In this document: positions 11,436 through 50,876 of the stretch, piece after piece
How positions within the stretch are numbered: position 1 is the stretch's first letter
Layout: each line of letters opens with the position of its first letter
Program-made: the position numbers and the translations under genes
DNA from: Prevotella sp.
Lineage (GTDB): Bacteria; Bacteroidota; Bacteroidia; Bacteroidales; Bacteroidaceae
Direction of reading: 5' to 3'
Assembly: GCA_017417465.1 (NCBI GenBank)
Contig: JAFPZD010000261.1
Span: forward strand, 1 to 53,356
Length of the DNA: 53,356 bases
Notes under the pieces: model-generated
The model's database searches: none
What the model saw: the letters and a program-made list of their open reading frames with translations, nothing else
What the model was told of the DNA's origin: nothing

Positions 11436-11487
11436 TCAAATAGTGAAATAGTCAATTAGTGAAATAGTCAAATAGTGAAATAAAAAG
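11436..11487. repeat. AATAGTCAAATAGTGA repeat between coaD and ybeY
   Basis: The whole 52-bp junction consists of alternating words AATAGTCAA and TAGTGAAATAG. It begins at the coaD stop codon and ends just before the ybeY ATG, so it replaces a normal intercistronic region and provides no Shine-Dalgarno sequence. Confidence 0.9.
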
Positions 11488-11904
11488 ATGATAAGCTATT
11501 CCGCTGAAAACGTTAAGATGCCTGCCCTGCGCCGTCGCGACACGTCAGCCTGGATACGCCGCGTCGCCAGCAGTTACGGCAAGCGGGTCGGTGAAGTGGG
11601 CTACCTCTTCTGCGACGATGCCCATATCCTCGACGTCAACCGTGAGTTTCTGGGGCACGACTACTACACCGACATCATCACCTTCGACTATTGCGAAGGC
11701 GACACCCTCAACGGCGACATCGTCATCTCGCTCGATACGGTGCGGTCAAATGCTGAGCAGTTGGGAAAGGACTACGACGACGAGTTGCACCGCGTCATTA
11801 TCCACGGCATACTGCACCTCTGCGGGCTGAACGACAAGGGTCCCGGTGAGCGCGAACAGATGGAGGCTGCCGAGGACAAGGCGCTGGGGCTCATTAATTC
11901 ATAA
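11488..11904 (+). CDS. ybeY: Endoribonuclease / rRNA maturation factor YbeY
   Basis: 138 residues. Zinc-dependent RNase acting in 16S rRNA 3' maturation and ribosome quality control. The metal site is the HGILHLCG motif near residue 106, followed by an ND pair where many homologues have YDH; that variant is usual in Bacteroidetes. The upstream strand NREFLGHDYYTDIITFDY fits the family fold. In a plus-strand run ruvB-coaD-ybeY-prmC-recX-comF; the gap to coaD is filled entirely by a short-word repeat. Confidence 0.95.
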   Translation: MISYSAENVKMPALRRRDTSAWIRRVASSYGKRVGEVGYLFCDDAHILDVNREFLGHDYYTDIITFDYCEGDTLNGDIVISLDTVRSNAEQLGKDYDDELHRVIIHGILHLCGLNDKGPGEREQMEAAEDKALGLINS

Positions 11905-11936
11905 TGCATAATTCATAGTGCATAATTATAATTTGT
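11893..11936. repeat. AATTCATAATGCATAATTC repeat at the ybeY-prmC junction
   Basis: ATTCATAATGCATAATTCATA and following variants; the word starts within the last codons of ybeY and supplies its stop codon. Known informally in many Bacteroidales genomes as a junction repeat; function unknown. Confidence 0.8.
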
Positions 11937-11940
11937 GTTG

Positions 11941-12786
11941 ATGGGTTTCAGGGAACTGTGGCAACCGCTGTGTGGGCTTTATGGGGCTGATGAGGCGAAG
12001 GCCATTGCCCGTTTGGTGCTGGAGGTGAAGTATGGACTGACTATGGCCGACATCCTTTACGGCAAGATGGAACAACTTGACAGCCAAGCCCTTCAAGCCT
12101 TACAAGACCGACTGCTGACGGGCGAGCCAGTGCAGTACGTGCTTGGCGAAGCGGAGTTCGGCGGGCGCCGCTTTTTGGTTGACCGCCGCGTGCTGATCCC
12201 CCGTCCAGAAACCTACGAGCTGTGCCAGCTCATTCTCAATTCACAATTCTCAATTCGCAATTCACAATTCTCAATACTCGACATTGGCACGGGCAGCGGT
12301 TGCATAGCCTGCACCCTGGCCGCCGACCTCCCGGGTGCCGACGTGACGGCATGGGACATCTCGGCCGACGCGCTTGATGTGGCCCGCGAGAATGCCCGTC
12401 GGCTCGATGTCAGCGTAACGTTTCAGCAGCGAGACGCCCTCACGCTCCCACTTGACACCCCGTCGCACTGGTCGCTCATTGTCAGCAACCCGCCTTACAT
12501 CTGCGACCATGAGCGGGCGGCAATGGCTCCAAACGTAGTGGACTACGAACCAGCGCAGGCGCTCTTCGTGCCCGACGACGACCCATTGCGCTTCTACCGC
12601 AGCATTGGGCACTACGCCCTGTCGGCACTGGTGCCAGGCGGCCGTCTCTACTTCGAGCTTAACGCCGGACACGCCGACGAGGTGCGCGAGCTCCTGCTGA
12701 CACAGGGCTTCGCCGACGTTGAGCTGCGCCGTGACCAATACGACAAACCAAGATTCGCCAAGGCATGCAAACCAATCAAACCATAA
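11941..12786 (+). CDS. prmC: Peptide chain release factor N5-glutamine methyltransferase
   Basis: 281 residues from ATG 11941 (in-frame GTG and TTG just upstream lie in the repeat). Methylates the GGQ glutamine of release factors with S-adenosylmethionine. Motifs: LIPRPETYEL, the SAM-binding LDIGTGSGCIA, and the catalytic NPPY (SNPPYICDHE). Between YELCQLIL and LDIGTGSG is an insertion NSQFSIRNSQFSI encoded by the AATTCTCAATTC repeat (12231-12276). It sits just before strand 1 of the methyltransferase fold, where a lengthened loop could be tolerated. The 3' end overlaps recX by 22 bp. Confidence 0.95.
   Translation: MGFRELWQPLCGLYGADEAKAIARLVLEVKYGLTMADILYGKMEQLDSQALQALQDRLLTGEPVQYVLGEAEFGGRRFLVDRRVLIPRPETYELCQLILNSQFSIRNSQFSILDIGTGSGCIACTLAADLPGADVTAWDISADALDVARENARRLDVSVTFQQRDALTLPLDTPSHWSLIVSNPPYICDHERAAMAPNVVDYEPAQALFVPDDDPLRFYRSIGHYALSALVPGGRLYFELNAGHADEVRELLLTQGFADVELRRDQYDKPRFAKACKPIKP
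12231..12276. repeat. In-frame AATTCTCAATTC repeat inside prmC
   Basis: The words CAATTCACAATTCTCAATTCG alternate in one frame to give NSQFSIRNSQFSI. The frame remains intact on both sides. It is the same repeat word as in fkp. Confidence 0.85.
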
Positions 12787-13262
12787 CCGAACAAGAGGCT
12801 TACCTACGGCTGGCCGCCCTCTGCGCACAAGCCGAGCACTGCCACCACGAGATGGACGAAAAGATGCGCCGCTGGGGACTCGACGACGAGGCCCGCGAAC
12901 GGGTACTGACACGCCTTGTGGCCGAGCGCTACATCGACGAAGAGCGCTACTGCCGTGCTTTTGTGGCCGACAAGATTCGCTATAACAAGTGGGGCCGCCG
13001 CAAAGTGGAGCAGGCGCTCTGGATGAAGCGCATCGACGCAGCCATCAGCCAGCAAGTGCTCGACGACGTCGACGAACGTGAATATGTGGCTGTGCTGAAA
13101 CCACTGATAGCCCAGAAGCGCCGCTCGACAAAAGCCCGCAGCGACTATGAACTGAACATGAAGCTCATCCAGTTTGCACGCTCGCGTGGCTTCGGCTTCG
13201 ACATCATCAAACAGTGCATGGACGTCGACGACGATGAACTGCTCGGCGACGACGATGACTAA
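12765..13262 (+). CDS. recX: Regulatory protein RecX
   Basis: 165 residues. RecX caps RecA filaments and inhibits recombinase activity. The three-helix repeats are visible: a first unit EAYLRLAALCAQAEHC, the conserved LVAERYIDEERYCRAFVADKI with RYNKWGRRKVEQAL, then a third unit ending FDIIKQCMD. The tail is very acidic (DDDELLGDDDD). Starts inside the prmC 3' end (22-bp overlap), so translation is probably coupled. RecX near ruvB gives a DNA-repair flavour to this transcription unit, although recA is absent. Confidence 0.93.
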   Translation: MQTNQTITEQEAYLRLAALCAQAEHCHHEMDEKMRRWGLDDEARERVLTRLVAERYIDEERYCRAFVADKIRYNKWGRRKVEQALWMKRIDAAISQQVLDDVDEREYVAVLKPLIAQKRRSTKARSDYELNMKLIQFARSRGFGFDIIKQCMDVDDDELLGDDDD

Positions 13263-13282
13263 CCGCCCCTACCCCAACAATC

Positions 13283-13990
13283 ATGGCAATGATGACCATC
13301 AGCTTCTGGCGACGACTGCTCGACATAGTCATGCCACGCACGTGTGCCATCTGCGGCCGTCGGCTCACACCCTCCGAATCGATCATCTGCGCCAGTTGTC
13401 TGACTGAGCTGCCCTTCACACGGCAGTGGCTGTCGGCCGACGACAACCACATGGCACGCCTCTTCTGGGGTGTCTTTCCCATCGAGCGGGCTGCTGCGCT
13501 GTGGTACTATGCTCCCCACTCAGAGAGCAGCAATCCCATCTACAACCTGAAATACCACGGCAGCCAGGAGACAGGTGTTGAGCTGGGCATGATGGCTGCC
13601 AACTACTACAGCACGGCAGGATTCTTCGACGGCATTGATGCCATCGTTCCCGTGCCACTGGCTCCTAAACGCCAGCGTCAGCGTGGCTACAACCAAAGTC
13701 TGATGATTGCCAAGGGCGTGCAAAGCGTGACGGGCCTCCCTATATATAATAAGGTGGTGCGCCGGACGCACTTCAAAGGCAGCCAGACGCAGAAGAACAC
13801 CTGGCAACGACAGGAGAACGTTGCCGACGTGTTCATGCTGACCGATGCAGCGACCATCACTGGCAAGCACCTATTGATTGTCGACGACGTGGTGACAACG
13901 GGCGCTACTGTCAGTGCCTGCGCCCAGCAGCTATGCCGTGCCAGCGATGTGCGCATCAGCGTACTCGCCCTGGGCTTCACTGTGCACTGA
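13283..13990 (+). CDS. ComF-family phosphoribosyltransferase-like protein
   Basis: 235 residues. N-terminal zinc-ribbon cysteines CAICGRRL and CASCLTEL, then a type I phosphoribosyltransferase domain with PVPLAPKRQRQRGYNQS and the PRPP motif LLIVDDVVTTGATVSAC. ComF/GntX proteins support DNA uptake in some bacteria; whether this one does is unknown. It follows recX by 20 bp. Three Met codons lie close together at the start (M1, M3, M4), so the exact start may vary by a few residues. Confidence 0.9.
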   Translation: MAMMTISFWRRLLDIVMPRTCAICGRRLTPSESIICASCLTELPFTRQWLSADDNHMARLFWGVFPIERAAALWYYAPHSESSNPIYNLKYHGSQETGVELGMMAANYYSTAGFFDGIDAIVPVPLAPKRQRQRGYNQSLMIAKGVQSVTGLPIYNKVVRRTHFKGSQTQKNTWQRQENVADVFMLTDAATITGKHLLIVDDVVTTGATVSACAQQLCRASDVRISVLALGFTVH

Positions 13991-14041
13991 GCCGAGAAAG
14001 TCAGTCTCTTAAGCGCTGGTTTCAAAAAAGGCGGAAGAAAA

Positions 14042-14073
14042 TTTGGAATTCTGCCTACTTATTCGTACCTTTG
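14042..14073 (+). promoter_or_regulatory. pyrE promoter
   Basis: TTTG (14042-14045), 20 bp, TACCTTTG (14066-14073) then CAG. A complete Bacteroidetes promoter placed 30 bp before the pyrE ATG. Confidence 0.85.
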
Positions 14074-14103
14074 CAGACAATTACTGAAACCAATACCAAT
14101 CTT

Positions 14104-14745
14104 ATGGAAGCTATTAAGAAGCAATTTGCACAGAAACTGCTCGAGGTGAAAGCCATCAAGCTACAGCCCGCCGACCCTTTCACTTGGGCCAGCGGATGGA
14201 AGTCGCCCTTCTACTGCGACAACCGCAAAACCCTCTCATTCCCCGCCCTGCGCTCGTTCGTAAAGGTGGAACTGTGTCATCTCATACAGCAGCACTTCCC
14301 TGAGGCCGACGCCGTGGCAGGCGTAGCCACCGGTGCCATCGCCCAGGGTGCCCTCGTTGCCGACCAGCTGGGACTGCCCTTCTGCTATGTACGCTCGAAA
14401 GCCAAGGACCACGGCATGCAGAACCTCATTGAGGGCCAGCTGCCTGAGGGCGCACGTGTCGTCGTCGTCGAGGATCTTATCTCCACTGGCGGCTCGTCGC
14501 TGAAAGCCGTCGGGGCACTTCGTCAGGCAGGTTTTGAGGTCGTAGGCATGGTGGCCAGCTACACCTACGGGTTCCCCGTGGCCGAAGCCGCCTTCCGCGA
14601 GGCCGGCGTGACACTCATCACGTTGACCGACTATGAGGCCGTCGTCGAGCAGGCAGCCCAGACCGGCTACATCCAGCCGTCCGACAAAGCCGTGCTGGCC
14701 GAGTGGCGTCAGGCTCCCGATGTGTGGAGCGGTCCCCAAAAGTAA
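14104..14745 (+). CDS. pyrE: Orotate phosphoribosyltransferase
   Basis: 213 residues. Converts orotate + PRPP to OMP in UMP synthesis. ASGWKSPFYCDNRK is the N-terminal family motif; VVVVEDLISTGGSSLKA is the PRPP-binding loop; YVRSKAKDHG carries the flexible-loop lysines. ATG 14104 was chosen because the frame upstream overlaps comF and the promoter lies at 14042-14073. No other pyr genes are adjacent. Confidence 0.96.
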   Translation: MEAIKKQFAQKLLEVKAIKLQPADPFTWASGWKSPFYCDNRKTLSFPALRSFVKVELCHLIQQHFPEADAVAGVATGAIAQGALVADQLGLPFCYVRSKAKDHGMQNLIEGQLPEGARVVVVEDLISTGGSSLKAVGALRQAGFEVVGMVASYTYGFPVAEAAFREAGVTLITLTDYEAVVEQAAQTGYIQPSDKAVLAEWRQAPDVWSGPQK

Positions 14746-14771
14746 TCACGAAATCTTTAGTACCAACCATT

Positions 14772-14817
14772 TAACTTTGGGGGCACGACAGCAGGCCACA
14801 CTGCTGTTTGCACCCCC
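14772..14817 (+). promoter_or_regulatory. Possible promoter and hairpin before the SRPBCC gene
   Basis: TAACTTTG (14772-14779) resembles a -7 box. It is directly followed by a hairpin with GGGGG (14779-14783) against CCCCC (14813-14817) and CAGCAG/CTGCTG inside (14789-14806). It could be a leader structure for the following gene or part of pyrE termination; a clear T-run is absent. Confidence 0.45.
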
Positions 14818-14832
14818 TACCCTTTTCAAGCA

Positions 14833-15246
14833 ATGACAAATTATGAAAGTAGCGTAAAGCAAATCCCCTATACACAGGAAGCCGTCTATCGCAAGCTCAG
14901 CGACCTTCGCAACCTGGAGAGCATCCGTGAGCATCTGCCACAGGAACAGTTACAGGACTTCAAGTTCGATGCCGACTCAGTGTCGGCCGAAGTGCCCATG
15001 CTGGGCAACGTCGCCGTGGAAGTCGTGGAGCGCGACGAGCCCAAGCTCGTGAAGTTTGGCAGCCGACAGTCGCCCATGGCTTTCAACGTGAGTCTCCAGA
15101 TAGAGCCCAACGACGAGCAGTCGTCGACGCTGAAAGTCATCGTCGACGCCGACCTCCCTTTCATGCTCAAGGCAATGATTGGCGGTCAGTTGCAGCAAGG
15201 TGTCGAAAAGATTGCCGATGTGTTGGCAACGCTCAACTACGAGTAA
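14833..15246 (+). CDS. SRPBCC/START-like domain protein
   Basis: 137 residues, no signal peptide. The pattern YESSVKQIPYTQEAVYRKLSDLRNLESI at the start and a long C-terminal helix (GQLQQGVEKIADVLATLN) around an antiparallel sheet resembles the SRPBCC ligand-binding fold seen next to pyrE in Bacteroidales. The ligand is unknown. The lipoprotein gene follows after 6 bp, so they form an operon. Confidence 0.7.
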   Translation: MTNYESSVKQIPYTQEAVYRKLSDLRNLESIREHLPQEQLQDFKFDADSVSAEVPMLGNVAVEVVERDEPKLVKFGSRQSPMAFNVSLQIEPNDEQSSTLKVIVDADLPFMLKAMIGGQLQQGVEKIADVLATLNYE

Positions 15247-15252
15247 CCGGTC

Positions 15253-15837
15253 ATGAGGGTGTGCCGCTGGATACTTCTTGCAATGGTTGCACTGTTGTCG
15301 GCTTGTGATGCCGAGAACAAGTACAACACGTACTATCCCTGCAGCTTTGTGTTCTTCACACAGCTCTACCCCACCAGTGCCCTCACACGCGCCCTCTCCA
15401 ACCCTGGCGAGTTCGTCATCGTGCAGCCAGAGACCGTGCAGGGCGTCGTTCACCTGAAGCTGACGCCCAACCACGGCAAGTGGGACCAGAGCGATGTTGA
15501 CCTTATCATGCGCACCGCCATCACCGGCGAGCGTATCAGCTACAACAACATGGGTGCTGGACGGGGGCTCGTCATCGGTCGTTCGAACTTCTTTGGTTTG
15601 AAAGCTTACGATTTGCAATGTCCTAACTGCCTGGCCGACTACGACGTGGCTCGCTACCCGCTACAGTGGACGGCCGACGGCAGCTATCTGTCGTGTCCGC
15701 AATGCCACCGCACCTACCAGCCGGACAACGACGACGGCCTCGTCATCAGTGGTGGAAAGAAAGACGACCGCATGCTCATCCAGTATCGCAGCATCAGCTA
15801 TCACGAGGCAGAAGGACGCCTCTATGTGCATAACTGA
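15253..15837 (+). CDS. Predicted lipoprotein with a CxxC pair, function unknown
   Basis: 194 residues with lipobox LLSAC (Cys at about 18). The C-terminal half has CPNC and CPQC about 30 residues apart, separated by a tryptophan strand, forming a zinc-ribbon or Rieske-like arrangement. In a Rieske centre one Cys-His pair would be expected twice; here HRTY follows the second pair but none follows the first, so metal-binding by four cysteines is more likely. I do not recognise the family. Co-transcribed with the SRPBCC-like gene. Confidence 0.75.
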   Translation: MRVCRWILLAMVALLSACDAENKYNTYYPCSFVFFTQLYPTSALTRALSNPGEFVIVQPETVQGVVHLKLTPNHGKWDQSDVDLIMRTAITGERISYNNMGAGRGLVIGRSNFFGLKAYDLQCPNCLADYDVARYPLQWTADGSYLSCPQCHRTYQPDNDDGLVISGGKKDDRMLIQYRSISYHEAEGRLYVHN

Positions 15838-15838
15838 G

Positions 15839-15945
15839 GAGAGTTAGGAGTTAGGAATTAGGAGTTGAGGAGGTGTGGAGTTGAGGAGGTAAAGTAGAAT
15901 GCCTTTTACGCGACCTAACTCTTAATTCCTAACTCCTAATTCAAA
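15839..15945. repeat. Inverted short-word repeat between convergent genes
   Basis: Left arm GAGTTAGGAGTTAGGAATTAGG (15840-15861, variants to about 15892), right arm CTAACTCTTAATTCCTAAC and on (15915-15941). The arms are complementary and can form a long hairpin between the lipoprotein gene and ackA, which are convergent. It may act as a shared terminator. The words TTAGGAGTTAGG are used again in a variant form at 20395-20492. Confidence 0.75.
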
Positions 15946-15953
15946 CAAGCTCC

Positions 15954-17144: not shown

Positions 17145-17152
17145 AGTTTTAA

Positions 17153-17193: not shown

Positions 17194-17200
17194 GATAATT

Positions 17201-17241: not shown

Positions 17242-17313
17242 CATAATGGATGGAAATGTTTGTTTAATTGGTTATACTGTCTTTTACTAATAGCCCACCG
17301 CTGAATAGCTATC

Positions 17314-20394: not shown

Positions 20395-20492
20395 AAGTTA
20401 GAAGGAGTTAGAGGTAGATAGAGATAGTTAGAAGGAGTAAGAGGTAGTTAGAAGGAGTTAGAGGTAGTTAGAAGGAGTTAGAAGTCATTAGT
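20395..20492. repeat. TTAGAAGGAGTTAGAGGTAG repeat between nrfA and resB
   Basis: At least four repeats of a roughly 20-bp word AGTTAGAAGGAGTTAGAGGT in the 185-bp space between nrfA and resB. It separates the structural genes from the maturation genes and could set their relative expression. Confidence 0.85.
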
Positions 20493-20557
20493 ATAGTCCT
20501 CTCAGGTGTATCGAAGCTCAAGTCTATCCTACTTTACTCCTTAACCTCCTATACTCC

Positions 20558-24573: not shown

Positions 24574-24802
24574 TGCTATTTACTATTTGACTATTTACAA
24601 TTTACTTTTTATTTTCGATCCTAGTTTATTTACTATTTGACTATTTTAGATTTACTATTTATTTACGATCTGATTATTTCACTATTTCAAGATTACACCA
24701 TTTCTTTATTTCAGCATTTCACCATTTTCGACACAGCGAATCGTCAAATAGCTAAATTGTAAATAAATAGTAAATCGTAAATCGTCAAATAGTAAATTAC
24801 CA
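24574..24802. repeat. TTTACTATTTGACTATTTAC repeat block, ftsA-ftsZ junction
   Basis: Almost the full 229 bp consist of variants of TTTACTATTTGACTATT, TTTCACCATT and, near the ftsA end, the inverse words AAATCGTCAAATAGTAAAT. The two halves are complementary, so the RNA could fold into a long AT-rich hairpin between ftsA and ftsZ. No promoter consensus is obvious, though FtsZ is normally needed in greater amount than FtsA. Confidence 0.85.
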
Positions 24803-26272: not shown

Positions 26273-26386
26273 AGCTATGTTGATATTTACGATTTGACGA
26301 TCTATTTCTATTTACGATTTGACGATTTACTATTTATTTACGATTTGAGGATTTAACTATTTGCTGCGCCGGACATATTTGACGAT
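26273..26386. repeat. TTTACGATTTGACGATTTAC repeat, ftsQ-ftsA junction
   Basis: The 114-bp junction repeats TTTACGATTTGACGAT variants; it also contains TTTGCTGCGCCGG, a word that recurs in the ftsL-ftsI junction as TTTGGCTGCGCCAG. Confidence 0.85.
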
Positions 26387-27136
26387 TTACTGTTTGTTGT
26401 GTCGTCGTTTGCAGATGATCTGGTTGTCGAACTCGGCACTGATGCTCGAATACTTGTTCCAGCCAGCCTCGTTCAAGCCGTAGAGGTAGAACTTACGCAG
26501 CCGCTCCAGCTTGCGCTTGACACCGACGGGCGGGCCGAGGTAGAGAATGTGGTCGCCCACACGGGGCACAAGCTCGACGGTGCTATCGGGCAACACGTTG
26601 ATTTGCACCACCTGGTTGTACCAGAAGCCATCGCCCACGAGCAGGTTACCGATAGGTGCCAGCACCCGCTTGGCATAGGATGGCGAGATGCTGCCAGTGG
26701 CCACAATGAGGTCGCAGGCATAGTTGGTGTCACGGAGCAGCTTGCCGTCTTCGTCGACATAGTAGTTGGCACCATTGCCAGCCATGACATGGAGCACGGG
26801 GAAACGCTGGCGCAGGTCGATGACGACGGTGCCCGACTGTGTCTTGTAGACCTCAACCTTGTCGATGTACTCCTTTTCCTGCAGGCAGTCCTCGATGTCG
26901 CGGGTGTTGATGGTGGCCAGGTCCTTGCCCGTGGGGTCCATCTGCGCATCGCTGAGCAGCTGCTTGACGTCGTTGGCGTTGAGGAAGCCCTCGGTGATGC
27001 CTTCGAGGATGTTCACGCGCACCCCTTGGCACACCTGCGGCTCTGCTGTGTCGAGCTTTTTGAAAGCCGTGAACGCCAGCAGCAGGTAGGCGCAGATGAG
27101 GATATTGATGACGGTGATGACTACGCGTTTCATCAT
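26387..27136 (-). CDS. ftsQ: Cell division protein FtsQ
   Basis: 249 residues: short cytoplasmic end, one membrane helix (VVITVINILICAYLLLAFTAF), then a periplasmic POTRA-like part (VRVNILEG... LLSDAQMDPTGKDLATINTRDIEDCLQ) and the FtsQ beta domain (YIDKVEVYKTQSGTVVIDLRQRFPVLHV). Scaffolds FtsL/FtsB in the divisome. Position between murC and ftsA is the standard dcw order. Weak sequence conservation is normal for this family. Confidence 0.93.
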   Translation of the reverse strand: MMKRVVITVINILICAYLLLAFTAFKKLDTAEPQVCQGVRVNILEGITEGFLNANDVKQLLSDAQMDPTGKDLATINTRDIEDCLQEKEYIDKVEVYKTQSGTVVIDLRQRFPVLHVMAGNGANYYVDEDGKLLRDTNYACDLIVATGSISPSYAKRVLAPIGNLLVGDGFWYNQVVQINVLPDSTVELVPRVGDHILYLGPPVGVKRKLERLRKFYLYGLNEAGWNKYSSISAEFDNQIICKRRHNKQ

Positions 27137-27247
27137 ATTATTTGACTATTCTAATTTATTTACTATTTGACGATTTACAATTTACTATTTATCTACGATT
27201 GGGCTATTTACTACTTATTTACGATTTGACGATTTACTATTTATTGA
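27137..27247. repeat. TTTACGATTTGACGATTTAC repeat, murC-ftsQ junction
   Basis: Entire 111-bp space made of TTTACTATTTGACGATTTAC and close variants, the same word as at the two following junctions. Confidence 0.85.
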
Positions 27248-28678
27248 CTATTTCATGTTTGCCTTTTCCTTGAGCAGACGGGTGATTTCGGGCACTTGCT
27301 CGTCAAGGTCGCCGGCGCCAAGGACGATGAGCACGTCGAAGGAGCGGCTCTTGATGAGCGACAGCACGTCGGCGGTATGGATGAGCTGACGCTGCACGCC
27401 CGGTGTCAGCAGGTCGTAGATGAGCTTCGACGACACACCCTCGATGGGGGCTTCGCGTGCCGGATAAATGTCGGTGAGGATGACCTCGTCGAGCAGGCTC
27501 AGAGCCTCGGCGAACTCGCGGTAGAAGTCGCGGGTGCGGGTGTAGAGGTGTGGCTGGAAGATGGCGGTGATGTGGCGGTCGCGATAGAGCTCGCGGATGC
27601 TGCGTGCACTCTGCAGGATCTCCTGCGGATGGTGAGCATAGTCGCTGAGGAACACCAGCTCGGGCGTCTTTATCTTGAAGTCGAAACGACGGTCGACACC
27701 GCTGAAGGTGCGCATGCCGTAGCGCAGCTCCTCGGCGTCACAGCCTGCCAGCTGGGCCATGGCCATGGCGGCAATGCCGTTGTCGATATTGATGGGTATG
27801 GGGTTGCCGAGCACCACGTTCGGGACACACTCGATGGGCGACACGAAGTCGAACGTGATGTCGCCATTCGCAATGCGGATGTTCTCGGCATGGAAGTCAC
27901 CCTCGTCGCGGCTGTAGTCATAGCGGCGCACACCGTCGCGCAGCCGCTCTTTCAGCTCGAGGCCACGGTGGACGATGAGTGCGCCACCAGGCTCGATGAG
28001 CTCGGTGTAGTGGGCGAAGCTCTCAAGATAGGCCTCCTTCGTACCGTAGATGTCGAGGTGGTCGGGGTCGGTGGCGGTGATGACCGACATGTAGGGCCGC
28101 AGCCAGTGGAACGAGCGGTCGAACTCGTCGGCCTCGATAACCACGAAGTCGGAGTCGGAGACGATATAGTTGGTACCGTAGTTCTTCGTGATGCCGCCGA
28201 GGAAGGCGTTGCAGTCGAGATGGCCCTGGTGCATGATGTGTGCACACATCGAGCTGGTGGTCGTCTTGCCGTGGGTGCCGGCAACGCAGAGGCCACGCAT
28301 CTGGCGTGTCAAGGTGCCCAACACCTGGGCGCGCTTCTGAATGTCGAAGCCGTGCTCACGGAAGTAGACCAGCTCCTTATGGTCGGCAGGCACTGCCGGC
28401 GTATAGACGACGAGGCATTGTTCGGGGTTCTTGCAGGCGTGGGGAATGGCATCGATATCCTCCTCGTAGTGCAAGAGCATGCCCTCCTTCTCCAGGTGGC
28501 GTGTGAGTGCCGAGGGTGTCTTGTCGTAGCCTCCCACGACGAGTCCACGGCTGATGAAGTAGCGAGCGATGGCGCTCATGCCAATGCCGCCCGCACCGAT
28601 GAAATAGACGGCGGAAAGCTTGCCCAAGCCCTCGCGGAGGGAGGGATGTGGATTTGTTGTAGCTGTATTGTTGTTCAT
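27248..28678 (-). CDS. murC: UDP-N-acetylmuramate--L-alanine ligase
   Basis: 476 residues. Adds L-Ala to UDP-MurNAc in the cytoplasm. Rossmann start VYFIGAGGIGMSAIARYF, ATP P-loop GTHGKTTTSSM, YAHHPQEI near the central domain end and GAGDL near the C-terminus. The ATG overlaps the murG stop (ATGA). The first ~20 residues (MNNNTATTNPHPSLREGLGK) are not part of the MurC fold: they are encoded by a copy of the dispersed GC palindrome (28622-28650), so the protein has gained an N-terminal tail from a repeat. Confidence 0.97.
   Translation of the reverse strand: MNNNTATTNPHPSLREGLGKLSAVYFIGAGGIGMSAIARYFISRGLVVGGYDKTPSALTRHLEKEGMLLHYEEDIDAIPHACKNPEQCLVVYTPAVPADHKELVYFREHGFDIQKRAQVLGTLTRQMRGLCVAGTHGKTTTSSMCAHIMHQGHLDCNAFLGGITKNYGTNYIVSDSDFVVIEADEFDRSFHWLRPYMSVITATDPDHLDIYGTKEAYLESFAHYTELIEPGGALIVHRGLELKERLRDGVRRYDYSRDEGDFHAENIRIANGDITFDFVSPIECVPNVVLGNPIPINIDNGIAAMAMAQLAGCDAEELRYGMRTFSGVDRRFDFKIKTPELVFLSDYAHHPQEILQSARSIRELYRDRHITAIFQPHLYTRTRDFYREFAEALSLLDEVILTDIYPAREAPIEGVSSKLIYDLLTPGVQRQLIHTADVLSLIKSRSFDVLIVLGAGDLDEQVPEITRLLKEKANMK
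28622..28650. repeat. Dispersed GC-palindromic repeat inside the murC 5' end
   Basis: GCCCAAGCCCTCGCGGAGGG then AGGGATGTG: a diverged fourth copy of the pta-ackA spacer repeat (17153-17193 and 17201-17241), same hairpin arms with a different loop. It is translated in frame as NPHPSLREGLG. Confidence 0.88.
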
Positions 28679-31130: not shown

Positions 31131-32462
31131 TTAGAGATTTCTGACCAGCTCCTTGAACTGTTCGCCACGATCCTCCATGTTCTTAAACAGGTCGAACGAT
31201 GCACAACAGGGTGAAAGGAGCACCGTGTCGCCAGGCTGTGCCAGCTCGTAGCAGGCCTCAACACAGGCTTTCATCGACTGCGTGTCGCGCACAGGGAGTC
31301 CCAGCGCGTCGAAGTTGTCGTGCAGCTTGCGGTTGTCGGCACCGAGGTATACCAATGCACGGCATTTCTCACGAATGAGCGGCTTGATGGGCTCGTAGTC
31401 GTTGCCCTTGTCCTTGCCGCCAATGATAAGCACGGTGGGCGTGCGCATCGAGTCGAGGGCGTACCAGCAGGCGTCGACATTGGTGGCCTTCGAGTCGTTG
31501 ACGTAGCTGACGCCACGGACGGTGGCCACCCGCTCCAAGCGGTGCTCCACACCAGGGAAGTCGCTGAGCGACTGGCGAATGATGTCCTTCTTGATGCCCG
31601 CAATATTGCCTGCGATGCCGGCCGCCAACGAGTTATAGATGTTATGACGGCCCGTCAGGCTCAGTGCCTCCTGCTCCATGTTGAAGGGCTCGGGCTGCTC
31701 GATGACGTACTGTCCCGCCTCGATATAGGCAATGGAGCCCTGCTCTTTCAGCTCGGAGAAGGGGAACTGTACGGCGCGGATGTCGTATTTCTCAAGCTCG
31801 CGGCGGATGATGGGGTCGTCGTTCCAGTAGATGAAGGCATCGCGCGACGTCTGGTTCTGTATGATGCGCATCTTGGCATCGACGTAGTTCTGCATCTTGA
31901 AGTCGTAGCGATCAAGATGGTCGGGCGTGATGTTCAGCAGAATGGCAATGTTGGCACGGAAGTCGTACATATTGTCGAGCTGGAACGAACTCAGCTCGAT
32001 GATGTAGTACTCGTGGGGCTCTTCAGCCACCTGCAGCGCCAACGAGTGGCCGATGTTGCCGGCCAGCCCAGCGTCGTAGCCGGCTTTTCGGAAGATATGG
32101 TAGATGAGGCTCGTCGTCGTGGTCTTGCCATTGGAGCCTGTGATGCAGATCATCTTCGCCCCCGTATAGCGGCCGGCGAACTCAATCTCGCTGATGATGG
32201 GAATACCGGCGGCAACGGCTTTGCGAACCAGGGGTGCCGTTTCGGGGATGCCCGGCGACTTGATGATCTCGTCGGCGTTCAGGATGAGGTCCTCGGTATG
32301 GTGGCCCTCCTCCCAGCTGATACCTCGTTCGTCGAGCATTGCTTTATAGTGAGGGGTAATGGCCGACATGTCCGAGACGAACACATCGAAACCTTCTTTC
32401 TTGGCCAAGGCAGCAGCGCCCACACCACTCTCTCCGGCACCAAGGATGACAATTCTTTTCAT
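31131..32462 (-). CDS. murD: UDP-MurNAc-L-alanine--D-glutamate ligase
   Basis: 443 residues. Adds D-Glu to UDP-MurNAc-Ala. Starts with RIVILGAGESGVGAAALAKK; ATP site ICITGSNGKTTTTSLIYH; NITPDHLDRY and VNDSKATNVDACWYAL are family motifs; LLSPCCASFDLFKN near the C-terminus. ftsW follows after 42 bp. Confidence 0.98.
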   Translation of the reverse strand: MKRIVILGAGESGVGAAALAKKEGFDVFVSDMSAITPHYKAMLDERGISWEEGHHTEDLILNADEIIKSPGIPETAPLVRKAVAAGIPIISEIEFAGRYTGAKMICITGSNGKTTTTSLIYHIFRKAGYDAGLAGNIGHSLALQVAEEPHEYYIIELSSFQLDNMYDFRANIAILLNITPDHLDRYDFKMQNYVDAKMRIIQNQTSRDAFIYWNDDPIIRRELEKYDIRAVQFPFSELKEQGSIAYIEAGQYVIEQPEPFNMEQEALSLTGRHNIYNSLAAGIAGNIAGIKKDIIRQSLSDFPGVEHRLERVATVRGVSYVNDSKATNVDACWYALDSMRTPTVLIIGGKDKGNDYEPIKPLIREKCRALVYLGADNRKLHDNFDALGLPVRDTQSMKACVEACYELAQPGDTVLLSPCCASFDLFKNMEDRGEQFKELVRNL

Positions 32463-32596
32463 TTGACTATTTGACGATTTGACGATTTACTATTTAACAA
32501 TTTACAATTTGACGATTTACGATTTGACGATTTTGCCCCGTCACTTCTTTCGGATGATCTATTCTGGCTCCTCTCCCTTGGGGAAGGGGCGGGGGG
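32463..32596. repeat. Repeat block, mraY-murD junction
   Basis: Two repeat types side by side: AT-rich TTTGACGATTTACTATTTAAC words (32463-32535), then a GC-rich palindrome CTCCTCTCCCTTGGGGAAGG then GGCGGGG (32569-32596) touching the mraY stop. The second type is the 'CTCTCC-TTGGGGA' class of small interspersed palindromes. Confidence 0.8.
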
Positions 32597-33870: not shown

Positions 33871-33997
33871 TTTTTCGTTATTTCGTTATCTCGATTTGTC
33901 GTTATCTCGATTTTTCGTTATTTCGTTATATCGTTATTACGTTATTACGAGGCTCGTTATCACGTTATTACGAGGCACGTTATCACGAGGCCCATTA
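33871..33997. repeat. CGTTATTTCGTTATCTCG repeat, murE-mraY junction
   Basis: 127 bp of CGTTATTTCGTTAT/CTCGATTTTTCGTTAT words, changing gradually to CGTTATTACGAGGC / CGTTATCACGAGGC copies near murE. A different word from neighbouring junctions. Confidence 0.88.
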
Positions 33998-35464
33998 TCA
34001 CGACTGGAAAATCTCGCGCACCACCTCACGGTCATCGAAGTGGTGCTTCACACCCTTTATCTCCTGATAGTCCTCATGGCCCTTGCCGGCGATGAGAATA
34101 ACATCACCCTTGCGGGCCATCATCGTAGCGGTACGGATGGCCTCACGACGGTCGACGATGGTGACAACCTTCTTACGCTGCTGCGGCGTCAGACCAGCGA
34201 GCATGTCATCGATGATGGCCTGTGGCTCTTCGAAGCGTGGGTTATCACTGGTGATAATGACACGGTCACTCTGGCGAACAGCTTCCTGAGCCATGAGCGG
34301 GCGCTTACCTTTGTCGCGATTGCCGCCAGCACCACAGACGGTAATGACCGAGCCCTTGCCGCCCAGCACCTCGTGGATGGCCTTGAGCACGTTCTCCAAA
34401 GCGTCGGGGGTATGGGCGTAGTCGACGATGGCCGTAAAACCTTCCGGCGAGCGGATGGGCTCCAGCCGGCCGGCAACGCTCTTCAGCGTGCTCATCACCA
34501 CGAGCACATCCTCTGGCTGCTGGCCCAGCAGCACGGCGGTGGCATAGACGGCGAGAAGGTTGCTGACGTTGAACTTCCCAATAAACTGCACGCCCACCTC
34601 ACGGCCATTGATGTCGAGGTACATACCCTCGAAGTGGCACTCTATGAGGCGTGCCTTGAAGTCGGCCATGGTACGGGTGGAGTAGGTCTTGACAGTGGCC
34701 CGCGTGTTCTGCACCATATAGAGGCCGTTCTTGTCGTCGGCATTAGTGACGGCGAAGCTACCCTTGGGCAGCATGTCGAAGAAGCGCTTCTTGGCGTCGC
34801 GGTAGTTTTCCACCGTCTTGTGATAGTCCAAATGGTCACGTGTCAGGTTTGTGAAAATACCGCCGGCAAACTTCAAGCCACCGATGCGCTGCTGTGCGAT
34901 AGCGTGGCTCGAGCACTCCATGAACACATACTGGCAGCCTGCATCGGCCATGCGCCGCAACAGGCGGTTCAGCTCGATGGCATCGGGCGTGGTATGGCTG
35001 GCAGGCACCGCCTCATCCTCGATGTAGTTGCACACCGTTGAGAGCAGTCCGCAGCGAAAGCCTAAGCGCCGGAACATATTATATAATAAGGTGGCGATGG
35101 TCGTCTTGCCATTGGTACCGGTGACGCCCACCAGCTGGAGGTGTTCCGAGGGGCGTTCATTGAAAGCCGTTGCCACAGGACCGACGGCAGTCTCGGTGCT
35201 CTCGACGGTGACGAAGGTAACGCCGCGAGCGGCCGCCACCTGCCGGACATCATCTGGCACATGCTCGCAGAGCACGGCTGCTGCGCCCTGCTCCACTGCC
35301 TTTGCAATATACTGATGACCGTCGGTCTGTGTACCCTTGATAGCTACGAAGAGGTGGCCGTCGGCGACGCGCCGCGAGTCGATGTCGACATCCTTTATCT
35401 CTACGTCGACCGGACCGTCGATGGTTTTTACCTCAATGTCTCTGATGATTTCACTCAGCTTCAT
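33998..35464 (-). CDS. murE: UDP-MurNAc-tripeptide synthetase MurE (diaminopimelate-adding)
   Basis: 488 residues. Adds the third amino acid of the stem peptide. P-loop [10 protein letters not shown] (113-122), substrate region [35 protein letters not shown] with the carbamylated lysine, and DNPR at 407-410, the four-residue motif that selects meso-diaminopimelate. So the wall is probably DAP-type. 24 bp after ftsI with no repeat at that junction. Confidence 0.97.
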
Positions 35465-37561: not shown

Positions 37562-37691
37562 CTTTTTATTTGACTATTTCACTAATTTACTATTTCACTA
37601 TTTGGCTGCGCCAGCATTCTACCAGAAGGGATGGCGGTAGCAAATTCTTCATTATTCACTATTCACTTTTCACTATTCACTATTCACTTCC
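37562..37691. repeat. Two-word repeat block, ftsL-ftsI junction
   Basis: Near ftsI: TTTGACTATTTCACTAATTTAC words; near ftsL: TTATTCACTATTCACTTTTCA words (37650-37690). Between them 37605-37645 (GGCTGCGCCAGCATTCTACC) shows no gene. Confidence 0.85.
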
Positions 37692-41893: not shown

Positions 41894-41940
41894 TTCTTTC
41901 GGCAACAAACCCATTCTTTAGGAACCGACACTTCCCTATT

Positions 41941-42033
41941 CGAGAAGTGTCCCTTCCTTATCCGAGAAGTGTCACACCTTTCTCCGAGAAGTGTCTCACC
42001 TTTCTCCGAGAGGGCTCCCATCTTTCTCCGAGC
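41941..42033. repeat. 22-bp tandem array B
   Basis: Units at 41941, 41963, 41985 and 42007, and a partial one at 42029, each beginning CGAG; the first three begin CGAGAAGTGTC; units 2-4 end TTTCTC. Same unit as array A (5951-6060) with GTGTC in place of GTCTC. Lies between the convergent GlsB-like gene and pnuT, 18 bp before the pnuT stop. Confidence 0.93.
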
Positions 42034-45163: not shown

Positions 45164-45206
45164 CTGACCTTAAATTGTTTAACGTTCAACAAAAAGGGGA
45201 CATTGA

Positions 45207-45290
45207 GAGCATTCCATCCCTTCGGCGGCACTACCCGCATCAGGTTCTGAGGGTATCATCTCAGCCCGCCAACAGGCAGGCACCCCTTGA
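45207..45290 (-). promoter_or_regulatory. TPP riboswitch (THI element)
   Basis: On the minus strand: GGGGTGCC (P1/P2 start), CTGAGAT, ACCCTCAGAACCTGAT (THI core; the usual CTGAnnA...ACCyTTGAACCTGA), GCGGGTAGTGCCGCCG (P4/P5) and GAAGGGATGG. All invariant segments are present in order. It lies in the leader between the promoter and the TonB receptor start. After the aptamer TCCCCTTTTTG could belong to a terminator-like expression platform. Confidence 0.96.
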
Positions 45291-45299
45291 ATTCGGGTG

Positions 45300-45331: not shown

Positions 45332-45491
45332 CATTCGGCAGCTTTTTTTCGCTGTGTGCTGCCAAAGGGCTCTGCCCGATACGAAGAGAGGTGCGAAGCG
45401 GTCTGTTTCCGCCTCGCACCTCCGTCTGCTCTTCAAACTCTAATGCTTTTCGGAGCGGGTGACATGCTTTTCAGAACGGGTGACGACTGTC

Positions 45492-47603: not shown

Positions 47604-47692
47604 AATTAATATGTTTAAGAGTTAATGGTTGTTGGTCGCCTCGTTCTGTAGGGAGAGGCGTGCAAAGCGATTGCCGCCCTCATTTCAGGCTG

Positions 47693-47723
47693 CAAAGGTA
47701 GCCCATTTCACCGAGACGGCAAA
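47693..47723 (-). promoter_or_regulatory. Promoter of the large secreted protein gene
   Basis: Complement: TTTG (47720-47723), 19 bp, TACCTTTG (47693-47700), then CAG. Located 90 bp before the start, within the 171-bp gap to the regulator gene; full consensus. Confidence 0.8.
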
Positions 47724-47774
47724 AGGGAAGGTATAGACAAAAGTATAGACAAGTGGATTAAAAAAGACTAATCC

Positions 47775-49196
47775 TTAGATTCCATCGACAAAGCGCTTCA
47801 GGTCGTCTTCGGGTGCCAGGCCGAGTTTCTTGCGCAGTCGGTAGCGGGCAGTGTTCAGGCTCGAGACAGAGATTCCTAAGGCGGTAGCCATAGCTTGCGT
47901 CTTAATGTTCATACGGATGAATCCGGCCAGCCGGACGTCGTTGTCGGTCAGTTGCGGGAAGCGAGCCTTAACGCGCTCTAAGAAGTCGGCCTGCTGCTCC
48001 CTGAGGTTCAGCTCGAGGGCGCTTAATTTACCGATGGAATCGGAGTTTTCTGCTATTTCGGCCAGTTGAATGCTCATGCTGACGTTGTGCTTGTAGGCGT
48101 GGTCGAGCTTCTCCTCGTTCTGTCGCATCTTCAGCTCCAGCAGTTCCCTCTCAAGCCGCTGCCGCTCTATTTCGGTGTCCAGCCGCTGTTTCTCCACCTC
48201 AGCCATGCGGCGGCGCGTCTCAGCCGCGCGTCGGAGGGCATGGATGACAATGACGAGGGCGATAATGACCAGCACCATAGCCGCGATGATAACAACGTGC
48301 ATCGTGCGGGTTCGGCGGTTCTCGAACTCCTTCTGTTCCAGCTGGATCTTTCCCTTCAGAGCGGCAATCTGGTAGTTCACCTGCGTGCCGCGCAGCTGCG
48401 TCGTGCGCGCCTCAAGCTCGTTGCGGTGGCGCATGTAGTTCTCCATGTCGGCTCGCAGGCTGTCGATGCTGCAGAGCAGGCGAAGCTGCAGAATCTCGTT
48501 GTCGGCGGCATCGTACTGGCGGGAGTATTCCACGCCTCTCTCTGCGTAGTGATAGGCCGAGTCGTAGGCGGCGTGGTGATAGAGCAGGCTGCTCTTCAGG
48601 TAGCAGTAGCCCACGAGGTAGAGCCCGTAGTCCATCGGCTTGCTGCGCTCAAACTCGTCGACCACCTCTTGCAGGTGCTCGTAGTCCTGCCCCATGAGGT
48701 ACGTCTCGCCGAGGTTGGCCAGCTCAATGTAGACGTAGGCCGTGTCCTGAGGGTAGAGCCGGCGGTCCAGTTCGATGACCTCTTTCCCGCAAGTGGCAGA
48801 GGCTTCGAAGTCGCCGTCTATCTTTGCCAGGAAGAGGGCCTTCATGCGGTAATAGTACTGCGAGGCAAAGGTTTCCGGTTGCGTGTTCTCCATGTAGTCC
48901 AGCGACTTCAGCAGCTCGTAGGCGTCTTCGCTACGGCCGGTCAGCTCATAGGTCATGACCATGTAGACGCCCGCAGTGAAGTAGGCCTCGTCGTTGCCCT
49001 CTTTCCGGGCAGCGTCCATGGCGGCCTGCAGGTGGTTGAGCGCTCCGATGATGTCGCTGTCGTAGTAGTCCTTGCAGCCTTGTTCAACGAGCGCCTTCGC
49101 CTTTTCTGTCTGCGAACCGGCACAGCCAACCAGCCCAGCGGAGGCCGCCAGAAGGGTCAGCAGGAAGAGTGTGGTTTTGCCTATGAAGTGTCTCAT
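47775..49196 (-). CDS. TPR lipoprotein-like, membrane-spanning HTH regulator
   Basis: 473 residues. N-terminal signal with a lipobox-like LVGC (Cys25), then helical TPR-like repeats (about 30-250), a single membrane helix (HVVIIAAMVLVIIALVIVIHA, 300-320), a coiled coil (about 325-395), and a C-terminal LuxR-like helix-turn-helix (LTDNDVRLAGFIRMNIKT...LGISVSSLNTARYRLRKKLG). So the sensor part would be outside and the DNA-binding part in the cytoplasm. This layout occurs in many Prevotella and Bacteroides regulators with no known signal. It precedes the secreted-protein gene by 171 bp. Confidence 0.85.
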   Translation of the reverse strand: MRHFIGKTTLFLLTLLAASAGLVGCAGSQTEKAKALVEQGCKDYYDSDIIGALNHLQAAMDAARKEGNDEAYFTAGVYMVMTYELTGRSEDAYELLKSLDYMENTQPETFASQYYYRMKALFLAKIDGDFEASATCGKEVIELDRRLYPQDTAYVYIELANLGETYLMGQDYEHLQEVVDEFERSKPMDYGLYLVGYCYLKSSLLYHHAAYDSAYHYAERGVEYSRQYDAADNEILQLRLLCSIDSLRADMENYMRHRNELEARTTQLRGTQVNYQIAALKGKIQLEQKEFENRRTRTMHVVIIAAMVLVIIALVIVIHALRRAAETRRRMAEVEKQRLDTEIERQRLERELLELKMRQNEEKLDHAYKHNVSMSIQLAEIAENSDSIGKLSALELNLREQQADFLERVKARFPQLTDNDVRLAGFIRMNIKTQAMATALGISVSSLNTARYRLRKKLGLAPEDDLKRFVDGI

Positions 49197-49203
49197 CGCC
49201 GTG

Positions 49204-49211
49204 CAAAATTA
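49204..49211 (-). promoter_or_regulatory. Promoter -7 box of the TPR/HTH regulator
   Basis: Complement TAATTTTGCAC, only 8 bp before the ATG at 49196, so the message would be nearly leaderless. Confidence 0.5.
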
Positions 49212-49357
49212 CACCTTTTTGGCGACTAACCGCGCCCGAAGCATCGAAAAGTCCCATTCTTTAACTCCCTTTAACGCCTTGCCCGCCCTTGACGGCAAAA
49301 CGCCCCTCTCCATGAAGAAAAAACGGCTCTGCCTGCACGTTTTTGCCAATTATTTTG

Positions 49358-49365
49358 TACTTTTG
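49358..49365 (+). promoter_or_regulatory. dgt promoter -7 box and leader hairpin
   Basis: TACTTTTG followed by CACCG; leader of about 90 nt. The leader carries a hairpin CAGTCCG/CGGACTG (49397-49403 and 49412-49418). TTTTTG lies 12 bp upstream instead of 19-20. Confidence 0.5.
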
Positions 49366-49459
49366 CACCGATTTTATGTAGGGGTGGGCCCTATCACAGT
49401 CCGAAAAGGTGCGGACTGCCGCGGTGTTTCCCCCTGTCAGAACAAGAGAATGTAGCAAT

Positions 49460-50800
49460 ATGATGGACTGGAAACAACTGATTTCAAACCGCCGCCTCGG
49501 GCAGGAACACCGCCATCCGGAGCGCCACGACGACCGCACGGAGTTCAAGCGCGACTACGACCGGCTGATCTTCTCGGCACCCTTCCGACGTCTCCAGAAC
49601 AAGACGCAGGTGTTCCCCCTGCCGGGCAGCATCTTCGTTCACAACCGGCTGACGCACTCCTTGGAGGTTGCCAGCGTGGGAATGTCGCTCGGCAACGATG
49701 TCAGCCAGCACCTCTGTGCCCGCAATGCCGACTACCGCAACAGCCTCGTGGCCGAAATCGGGCAGATCGTGGCCACCGCCTGCCTGGCCCACGACCTGGG
49801 GAACCCACCCTTCGGCCACTCTGGCGAAAAGGCCATCCAGACGTTCTTTACTGAGGGCAAGGGCAGCAGTCTCCGTGAGAAGGTATCGCCAACATTCTGG
49901 AGTGACATCACCCACTTCGAGGGCAACGCCAATGGCTTCCGTCTGCTCACCCACCAGTTCAAGGGACGCCGCCCAGGTGGCTTCGTCATGACCTACTCCA
50001 CGCTGGCCAGCATCGTGAAGTACCCCTTCGCGTCGTCGGTCGCCGGCAAGAAGGGCAAGTTTGGGTTCTTCAACAGCGAGGCGGAGACCTTCGAGCGCAT
50101 CGCCGACGCGATGGGCATCATACGTCTGTCAGCGCCCGGCGAGCCCCTGCGCTATGTCCGCCACCCGTTGGTCTACCTTGTCGAGGCTGCCGACGACATC
50201 TGCTACGAGATTATGGATATCGAGGATGCCCACAAACTGAAAATCCTCACCTTCGACGAGACGGTTCACCTCATGCTCGACTTCTTCGACGAGACGGTGC
50301 AGCGCCACATCCTCCAGCGCATCGACGAAGAGCAGCTGACCGACCGCAACGAGCAGGTGCAGTATCTGCGAGCCTGTGTCATTGGCAAGCTGGAGAACGA
50401 GTGTGTACAGACGTTCATCGACCATGAGGAGGAGATTCTCAGCGGCACCTTCACGGGCGCACTCATCGACCACATTGCGCCCGTGCCCCGTCAAGCCTAC
50501 GAGACCTGCTCGCGCATCTCAAAAGAGCGTATCTACATGAGCCAGCCCGTGCTCGACGTGGAGCTGTCGGGTTACCGCATCATGGCCACGCTGATGGAGC
50601 TGATGATTGAGGCCATCGAGCACCCCGAGCGTTTCTACTCACGACAGCTCATCGGGCGCGTCTCGTCGCAGTACGACATTGAGAACCTGTCGTTGGAAAC
50701 GCGTCTCATGGCCGTCATCGACTATATCAGCGGCATGACCGACGTCTATGCCCTCGATGTCTACCAGAAAATCTGTGGTATCTCGCTACCTATCGTATAA
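49460..50800 (+). CDS. dgt: Deoxyguanosinetriphosphate triphosphohydrolase-like protein
   Basis: 446 residues from ATG 49460 (MMDWKQLISNRRLG; a second ATG follows at once). HD-domain enzyme splitting dGTP to deoxyguanosine and triphosphate. FSAPFRRLQNKTQVFPL, HNRLTHSLEVASVG (first His, near 66), HDLGNPPFGHSGE (HD pair at 111-112) and YLVEAADDICYEIMDIED are all present. Substrate range of this subgroup is not certain. Convergent with the methyltransferase gene. Confidence 0.93.
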   Translation: MMDWKQLISNRRLGQEHRHPERHDDRTEFKRDYDRLIFSAPFRRLQNKTQVFPLPGSIFVHNRLTHSLEVASVGMSLGNDVSQHLCARNADYRNSLVAEIGQIVATACLAHDLGNPPFGHSGEKAIQTFFTEGKGSSLREKVSPTFWSDITHFEGNANGFRLLTHQFKGRRPGGFVMTYSTLASIVKYPFASSVAGKKGKFGFFNSEAETFERIADAMGIIRLSAPGEPLRYVRHPLVYLVEAADDICYEIMDIEDAHKLKILTFDETVHLMLDFFDETVQRHILQRIDEEQLTDRNEQVQYLRACVIGKLENECVQTFIDHEEEILSGTFTGALIDHIAPVPRQAYETCSRISKERIYMSQPVLDVELSGYRIMATLMELMIEAIEHPERFYSRQLIGRVSSQYDIENLSLETRLMAVIDYISGMTDVYALDVYQKICGISLPIV

Positions 50801-50804
50801 GAAG

Positions 50805-50876
50805 ATGAAAGATGAAAAATGAAAAATGAAAAATGAACTTCATCTTTCATCTTTAATCTTTAATCTTTAATCTTTC
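50805..50876. repeat. AATGAAAAATGAAAAATG / TCTTTAATCTTTAATC inverted repeat
   Basis: AGATGAAAGATGAAAAATG words followed by the complementary TTCATCTTTCATCTTTAATC. It overlaps the last codons of the methyltransferase gene (stop at 50867) and starts just after the dgt stop. It can form a hairpin between convergent genes and may serve both as terminator. Confidence 0.8.

Follow-up and report, generated by a model that had tools for sequence, protein, structure and literature searches.

Tandem arrays of short words at gene junctions of a Prevotella genome: a possible repeat system of dispersed hairpin elements and local growth

Short words of 7 to 12 bp are repeated in tandem at many gene junctions of a contig of Prevotella sp. 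(JAFPZD010000261.1, assembly GCA_017417465.1), analysed here over its full 53,356 bp and referred to as the window. The question raised is whether each block was amplified from its own junction or whether the words belong to a system dispersed through the genome. An initial annotation had listed six such blocks outside the division and cell wall (dcw) cluster and had favoured the former, with a distinct word at each junction. The best explanation found, which is given an even chance of being correct, is an intergenic repeat system of the genus in which words are dispersed, partly as hairpin elements, followed by local tandem growth and fast turnover. The window has a G+C content of 0.56 and is one contig of a 4.42 Mb genome bin in 278 contigs (90.8% complete, 5.53% contamination). 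Together with 20 further stretches it forms an own-genome sample of 452,356 bp. Fetched stretches are denoted by L numbers and genomes by G numbers, e.g. L117 from G083.

Genes were called using a custom caller trained on the long reading frames of the sample, and gaps were defined as uncovered stretches of at least 30 bp, the ends of fetched pieces counted (n = 237). At a score of at least 36, arrays were present in 119 of the 237 gaps, compared with 8.4 on average and at most 13 in 20 dinucleotide shuffles of the gaps. Arrays covered 24% of the sampled intergenic bases; their density was 3.4 per kb in intergenic and 0.25 per kb in genic sequence. The best period was a multiple of three in 57 of 206 intergenic and 64 of 98 in-gene arrays, and short-word arrays were AT-rich, with a G+C content of 0.40 against that of the window. 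All six noted blocks were recovered as tandem arrays by Tandem Repeats Finder. Each lies between called genes, none within, and gene calls and shuffles place them beyond chance. The window contains 22 intergenic arrays in all, 22-bp and 48-bp ones included. Other genomes of the genus have arrays too, and the suggestion of a genome-wide process is borne out.

Words were scored as shared where at least 30% of the 7-mers of the smaller array were found in an array of another gap. Sharing was observed for 147 of 194 arrays, compared with 25 to 33 when units were shuffled and 13 to 39 when units were cut from real stop contexts (5 runs each). One chained word family links 92 arrays across 67 gaps. 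The word-sharing tests against both nulls rule out private dialects, and a distinct word for each block can no longer be maintained; the word at 11436 is itself of the dcw kind. The claim that words are homogeneous within blocks and different between them was only partly correct. Arrays of the same gap were alike in 10 of 142 direct and 11 of 142 inverted pairs (7.0-7.7%), about six times as often as arrays of different gaps (231 and 248 of 18,579 pairs; 1.2-1.3%), whereas three quarters of arrays share words between gaps. These counts bear on a possible but rather unlikely alternative, pure local seeding, in which the 3' end of a gene is duplicated in tandem together with its stop context and extended by slippage, words differing with their seeds. 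Sharing far exceeds the range of the stop-context null, and arrays overlapping a stop codon share words most often (31 of 33).

Part of the word stock has a common architecture. In the GGAG-word family a purine array is followed by an inverted inner end, GAGGTAAAGTAGRATA, a core and a mirror-image array. The end motif, a 16-mer, has 101 exact sites in the genome and none in a backward control; among the matches listed, 17 plus-then-minus pairs and no minus-then-plus pair lie within 100 bp. In 20 copies that were read the core measured 19-84 nt, and 49-54 nt in 12 of them (approximately 52 nt). When aligned to one consensus, drawn by eye from the same 20 copies, 19 cores scored better than the best of 50 of their own shuffles in either orientation; the exceptional copy, L004:12422, carries an array within the loop. 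When 16 copies were used to build a covariance model (R1), 31 matches were obtained in the own genome at 30 distinct sites, from only 33 candidates scored; of 120 genomes, the own one included, 19 had a match. Of 30 fetched model sites, representing about 19 places, 29 fall outside the called genes and 25 are flanked by co-directional genes. In motif sites, model sites, related cores and non-coding location alike, the family therefore shows the many dispersed, short, non-coding copies of a miniature inverted-repeat transposable element (MITE). Such common cores are not explicable by independent seeding.

Two blocks of the window, 15839-15945 and 20395-20556, appear to resemble this element, and the former has the same inner end. 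The latter had been noted at 20395-20492, which proves to be one arm: a core and an inverted arm extend to 20556 although the adjoining genes are co-directional. By eye, this core recurs at L003 ~102, L005 ~18920, L017 ~7640 and L020 ~14766. For the GGAG-word blocks, whose core is common with dispersed copies, the proposal that words were amplified locally and not spread by one transposing element is not supported. For most arrays, which are solo direct repeats, it may still hold. A second composite, element B (37567-37689), has a further copy by eye at L015:7914-8019, with two arrays around GAATTTGCTACCGC...GCGCAGCC, and its motif GAAGAATTTGCTACCGC occurs four times in the genome and not in the control.

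By eye, element architecture and core are retained in G083, and the architecture in G121. In several other genomes the model matches are, by eye, hairpins of GGAGTTAA words with a different core bounded by GACA and TGTC. Scanning a species collection with a 17-mer yielded 14 stretches with 16 sites, Prevotella or Prevotellaceae contributing 7 stretches and 9 sites; GGAG-like words were seen by eye upstream in these 7 stretches and not in the 7 others. A separate observation is a higher-order tandem repeat of about 57 bp at G000:C61:3100-3344, composed of the GGAG arm and part of a core.

The dependence of repeat type on gene orientation was examined by comparing 7-mer pairs with 100 shuffles per gap in gaps of 40-800 bp, 12 longer gaps being skipped. 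Significant inverted repeats were found in 25 of 29 convergent, 38 of 130 co-directional and 6 of 39 divergent gaps, and significant direct repeats in 20, 60 and 5 of the same gaps respectively. The proposal that blocks are inverted between convergent genes and direct between co-directional genes stands as an enrichment (25/29 against 38/130 for inverted repeats, p = 1.7 x 10−8). As a strict rule it is rejected, both by those 38 co-directional gaps and by the 25 of 30 element sites between co-directional genes; moreover, among the 60 co-directional gaps in which direct repeats were significant, 29 had inverted repeats as well, and the block at 20395-20556 is itself an exception. Two facing arms would give rise to inverted repeats. 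Ordinary terminator hairpins may account for part of the convergent excess. An inverted 10-mer partner within the same gap was found for 35 of 138 short-word arrays, compared with 5.1 expected and a maximum of 10 on swapping. Among 38 short-word-array gaps with inverted pairs the purine arm came first in 23, second in 5 and neither in 10; in 40 other gaps with inverted pairs the corresponding figures were 18, 15 and 7.

The initial annotation had further linked the blocks to stop codons, and this link is upheld. By eye, the flanking stop lies inside the repeated word in five of the six blocks, the 1230 block being the exception. The contexts are AATAG-TCAAATAG (11436), CATAA-TGCATAA (11893) and TGA-GGAG (at 15837), and, at right block ends, TTTGA-GGAG (20395 block) and GATTAA (50805 block). 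The polarity of stops was determined for 113 co-directional short-word arrays, 50 of which start no more than 12 nt from the upstream stop and 63 farther away. Near-stop arrays carried more stops on the sense strand in 38 cases and fewer in 8 (p = 9 x 10−6), whereas the corresponding numbers for the farther arrays were 17 and 26. Near-stop arrays held 397 sense stops, compared with approximately 283 after base shuffles or 299 after dinucleotide shuffles, and had stops in all three frames in 37 of 50 on the sense strand against 16 of 50 on the antisense strand. A purine-first palindrome presents its stop-bearing strand to the adjoining gene either way round, so that a strand bias would arise without selection for stops; the bias behind stop codons may have this origin.

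Gene ends also recur. The last 7 nt of a gene, stop included, reappeared in the next 150 bp downstream for 13 of 236 records, compared with a mean of 3.1 and a maximum of 9 when ends were exchanged with those of other genes having the same stop. In relatives recurrence was 10 of 191 against 2.4 (maximum 8). With the last 6 nt it was weaker there, 15 against 8.3, with 15 of 1000 swaps reaching the observed value. The antisense control was flat in both sets, as was the start-side control in the own sample, where first-codon contexts showed no recurrence upstream. Local seeding predicts such recurrence. It also predicts that the 7 nt preceding the stop should recur, as they do (10 of 236 against 2.0), which indicates that the repeated piece is the gene end and not the stop alone. 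Most of the 236 records, on the other hand, show no recurrence.

At the dcw genes, MurD and MraY end at an identical residue in 14 aligned genomes, the ends of MraW, MurE and FtsA agree within 0-3 residues, and the tails of MurC and FtsQ vary by several residues. Displacement of gene ends by arrays is unsupported for the first five proteins. It may have occurred at MurC, FtsQ and FtsL; FtsL ends differ between G083 and G247, and that of G083 is array-like. A CTAGGATAG-type word stands behind the CTCTAG end of MurD and points either to local duplication or to joining where a short sequence matches the stop codon. In favour of local seeding, short arrays in L081 and L087 repeat CTCTAG despite the constancy of the MurD end, and among close relatives (L081/L082; L087/L088/L089) the number of units varies by eye while the word is constant. 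A clear stop-context array was observed in L117, where ACGTTGA forms the end of a gene and consecutive ACGTTGA and GCGTTGA words come after it.

An improbable alternative is that the arrays are selected regulatory sites, acting as binding sites or as unstructured leaders that aid translation or mRNA processing. The sense-strand polarity, the excess of stops over shuffles near stop codons and the AT-richness of the arrays are compatible with this, and AGGAGGT within GGAG arms resembles a Shine-Dalgarno sequence. In the portions of MacGregor 2015 covered here (PMC4679880), a role of this kind is proposed for TAACTGA repeats. Against it, there is no excess of arrays in front of start codons (32 of 113 array ends within 12 nt of the start, compared with 30.1 on random placement), first-codon contexts do not recur upstream, and at most array junctions of two close relatives the array is called in one of them only, as follows.

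No close strain of the same species was found, and turnover was compared at the level of junctions between G083 and G247, which have 29 orthologues of median 92.8% identity and 24 common junctions. Arrays were called in both species at 2 junctions, in G083 only at 9 and in G247 only at 3, i.e. in one species at 12 of 14. The threshold for this comparison was 30, hence some of these arrays are weak, and by eye 2 of the 12 have a shorter stretch of similar words in the other species. At the dcw junctions, 20 relatives either had arrays built of different words or lacked arrays; at murE-mraY, AATAACG words reappear in several other species.

A general cause in the form of MutS loss and runaway slippage in this lineage is very improbable. 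MutS1 above the cut-off was found neither in the own bin, at its 90.8% completeness, nor in G009 (99% complete), and mutS may really have been lost in some species. However, MutS1 scores above the cut-off in the array-rich relatives G083, G274, G337 and G121, and it is lacking in G358, whose dcw region has no called array; the two observations together rule out MutS loss as a general cause. Units of 7 nt or longer also fall outside the usual range of MutS repair. An artefact of assembly or binning, for which the 278 contigs and 5.53% contamination of the bin might speak, is scarcely credible, given that arrays occupy the same junctions in other assemblies and that the end motif with GGAG words occurs in named public Prevotella records.

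Several results weigh against the favoured dispersal system. At E ≤ 0.001 the model finds only 6 distinct sites in the 452-kb sample and 2 in 615 kb of relatives, so the GGAG element family explains a small part of the arrays. The window blocks themselves score weakly (15876-15937, E 0.014; 20473-20550, E 0.15). Since the copies were located by their inner end, its conservation is overestimated, and the word arrays lie outside the inverted ends that flank the core, which leaves the true ends of the element undefined. Solo arrays lacking an inverted partner make up 103 of the 138 short-word arrays, and their link to the element is unproven. Recurrence behind stops extends to the 7 nt preceding the stop and hence is no property of the stop codon itself. 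Gaps with called arrays in the own sample numbered 72 of 144 co-directional, 22 of 29 convergent and 10 of 39 divergent; in relatives (24 of 34 fetched stretches, close copies left out) they numbered 55 of 142, 3 of 9 and 14 of 25, and a general scarcity in divergent gaps was accordingly discarded. Two arms of the same element barely exceed arms from different copies in likeness, the observed value being reached by 116, 370 and 556 of 5000 permutations at arm lengths of 24, 36 and 50. Because the model covers few arrays and pre-stop nucleotides recur, local seeding was given more weight and the dispersal system less.

Under the dispersal system, a limited stock of C-poor, stop-bearing words of 7-12 bp would spread over gene junctions, part of it travelling as the arms of small non-coding palindromic elements with a core near 50 nt. 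Dispersal would resemble transposition. Landed copies would then grow or shrink by tandem duplication or slippage, making words locally alike, and solo arrays would belong to the same system. Arrays would settle where a change of length is tolerated, namely behind stop codons, between co-directional genes and in variable protein linkers, and selection would remove those that break genes; the process would be mostly neutral. A tentative and unlikely variant is that the hairpins, genus-wide, grow by themselves, out-of-register fold-back copying between the arms lengthening and rewriting words, with dialects developing by lineage while the purine-first architecture is kept, and solo arrays being one-arm relics. 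Such copying is compatible with the perfectly mirrored stems, 37-45 nt long, seen in five other genomes (L232, L233, L235, L236 and L238), though these were picked by model score. Fold-back copying would account for local likeness, while the excess of likeness between arms of the same element, as given above, is weak, and co-evolution of the arms within one element was not adopted.

Tandem repeats of comparable kinds have been described. Intergenic direct repeats of the heptamer TAACTGA, in bacteria that include some Bacteroidetes, were reported by MacGregor 2015 (PMC4679880). In the passages covered, these are likewise short intergenic tandem words whose forward repeats carry stops in all frames, whose in-gene copies are often reversed and which close relatives can lack at the same junction. 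Direct repeats of about 7 nt with three-frame stops on one strand were also found here, in the 37 of 50 near-stop arrays noted above. Unlike the single TAACTGA word, many word families are present, and they are enriched behind stop codons with no excess on the start side, whereas TAACTGA repeats lie, according to those passages, mostly just upstream of starts; the same passages contain no hairpin element with a core. The BrickBuilt MITE of Porphyromonas gingivalis (Klein 2015, PMC4596501), as far as its description was covered, comprises one 23-nt array between a leader and a tail in 19 copies. It is similarly a dispersed, intergenic, non-coding element of a related bacterium with a tandem array and inverted ends. 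It differs, on the same partial basis, from the 7-10 bp words arranged here in two mirrored arms outside a core of about 52 nt, with 101 end-motif sites. With units of 7-10 bp, the arms do not match the 23-nt unit of BrickBuilt with its leader and tail. Neither paper, in the passages covered, describes word arms that mirror each other across a core. Long simple sequence repeats have been discussed as products of slippage (Mrazek 2007, as cited in the covered part of PMC4679880). An excess of heptanucleotides and an in-gene preference for multiples of three are common to those repeats and the present arrays (64/98 in genes against 57/206 between them); words common to several loci and partly tied to element cores are a difference, as far as that citation extends.

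No description of such a repeat system in Prevotella was found in searches of open-licence papers. REP/BIME and BOX sequences are dispersed intergenic palindromes, BOX with a variable number of an internal module; the arms described here differ in being built of tandem words. If the dispersal system is real, it would have made a quarter of the sampled intergenic DNA and part of that of relatives. It would explain why junctions, even those among the cell-division genes, and variable protein linkers turn over so quickly, and would provide a test case for the spread and growth of tandem words.

Table 1. Repeat arrays and putative elements in the window.
Position	Strand	Feature	Context
1231..1297	.	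Solo purine-rich array, AGGGAGTGAAGGG type	Directly upstream of start of minus-strand gene 441-1229
2781..2817	-	In-gene array; stops 0 sense, 5 antisense	Variable linker, fucokinase/pyrophosphorylase-like gene
11431..11482	+	Solo direct array, AATAGTCA/AATAGTGA	Covers stop codon of CTP_transf_like gene, extends to ybeY
11895..11932	+	Direct array, TAATTCATAATGCA	Word contains ybeY stop TAA
12232..12279	+	In-gene array; stops 0 sense, 5 antisense	Length-variable linker, PrmC-like methyltransferase
15839..15945	.	Palindromic block: GAGTTAG/TTGAGGAG arm 15841-15890, inverted arm CCTAACTCCTAATT 15914-15942	Convergent genes
20395..20556	-	AGTTAGAAGG arm 20396-20484, core, inverted GGAG-word arm to 20556	Co-directional genes
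24576..24797	-	Two inverted AAATAGTAAATCG-type arms, pyrimidine arm first (exception to purine-first)	ftsA-ftsZ junction
26284..26363	-	Direct array, AAATCGTCAAATAG family	Between gene 26387-27136 (ftsQ by position) and ftsA
27157..27253	-	Direct array, AAATCGTCAAATAG family	Between murC and ftsQ-position gene
32461..32533	-	Direct array, AAATCGTCAAATAG family	mraY-murD
33873..34003	-	Array, CGTAATAACG type	murE-mraY
37567..37689	-	Composite element B: AGTGAAT array, core GAATTTGCTACCGC...GGCGCAGCC, AAATAGTGA array	
50801..50875	.	Hairpin: ATGAAAA words and inverted ATCTTTA words	Convergent genes

No partner arm was seen for the array at 1231. In the block at 15839 the inner end AGGTAAAGTAGAAT and a short core lie between the two arms, and the right arm of the hairpin at 50801 provides the TAA stop of a SpoU-family gene. 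The two in-gene arrays consist of words similar to those between genes. The corresponding linkers of relatives, compared with minus-strand match rows ignored, differ and are sometimes repeat-like. A further in-gene array was seen by eye at approximately 3361-3400. Among the matches listed, which cover 38 of 94 in-gene arrays under a listing rule that favours antisense stops, stops were richer on the antisense strand in 21, richer on the sense strand in 8 and tied in 9; an orientation of in-gene arrays with stops antisense is only suggestive.

Repeats of other kinds were also noted. Minisatellites of 22 bp (CTCCGAGAAGTCTCACACCTTT type) occur at 5950-6051 and 41931-42032 of the window and at L005:7862, L008:7553 and L002:13923; this family comprises 8 arrays in 8 gaps, and the best period was 22 in 27 of the 206 intergenic arrays of the sample. 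A palindrome some 240 bp long, its ends being TTCAAGTTTCGCAAG/CTTGCGAAACTTGAA, is present at L009:1365-1700, L017:7262-7770 and L020:4400-5070 in copies 91-92% identical, two of which adjoin or sit inside AGTTAGAAGT arrays, as if inserted. An Rfam scan of the window, L012, L015, L229 and L248 gave only small subunit (SSU) rRNA and thiamine pyrophosphate (TPP) riboswitch matches, with no RNA family at the blocks. In the window these are the 5' end of a 16S rRNA gene at the contig start (1-73, minus strand) and a TPP riboswitch at 45200-45297 (minus strand; RF00059, 67.7 bits).

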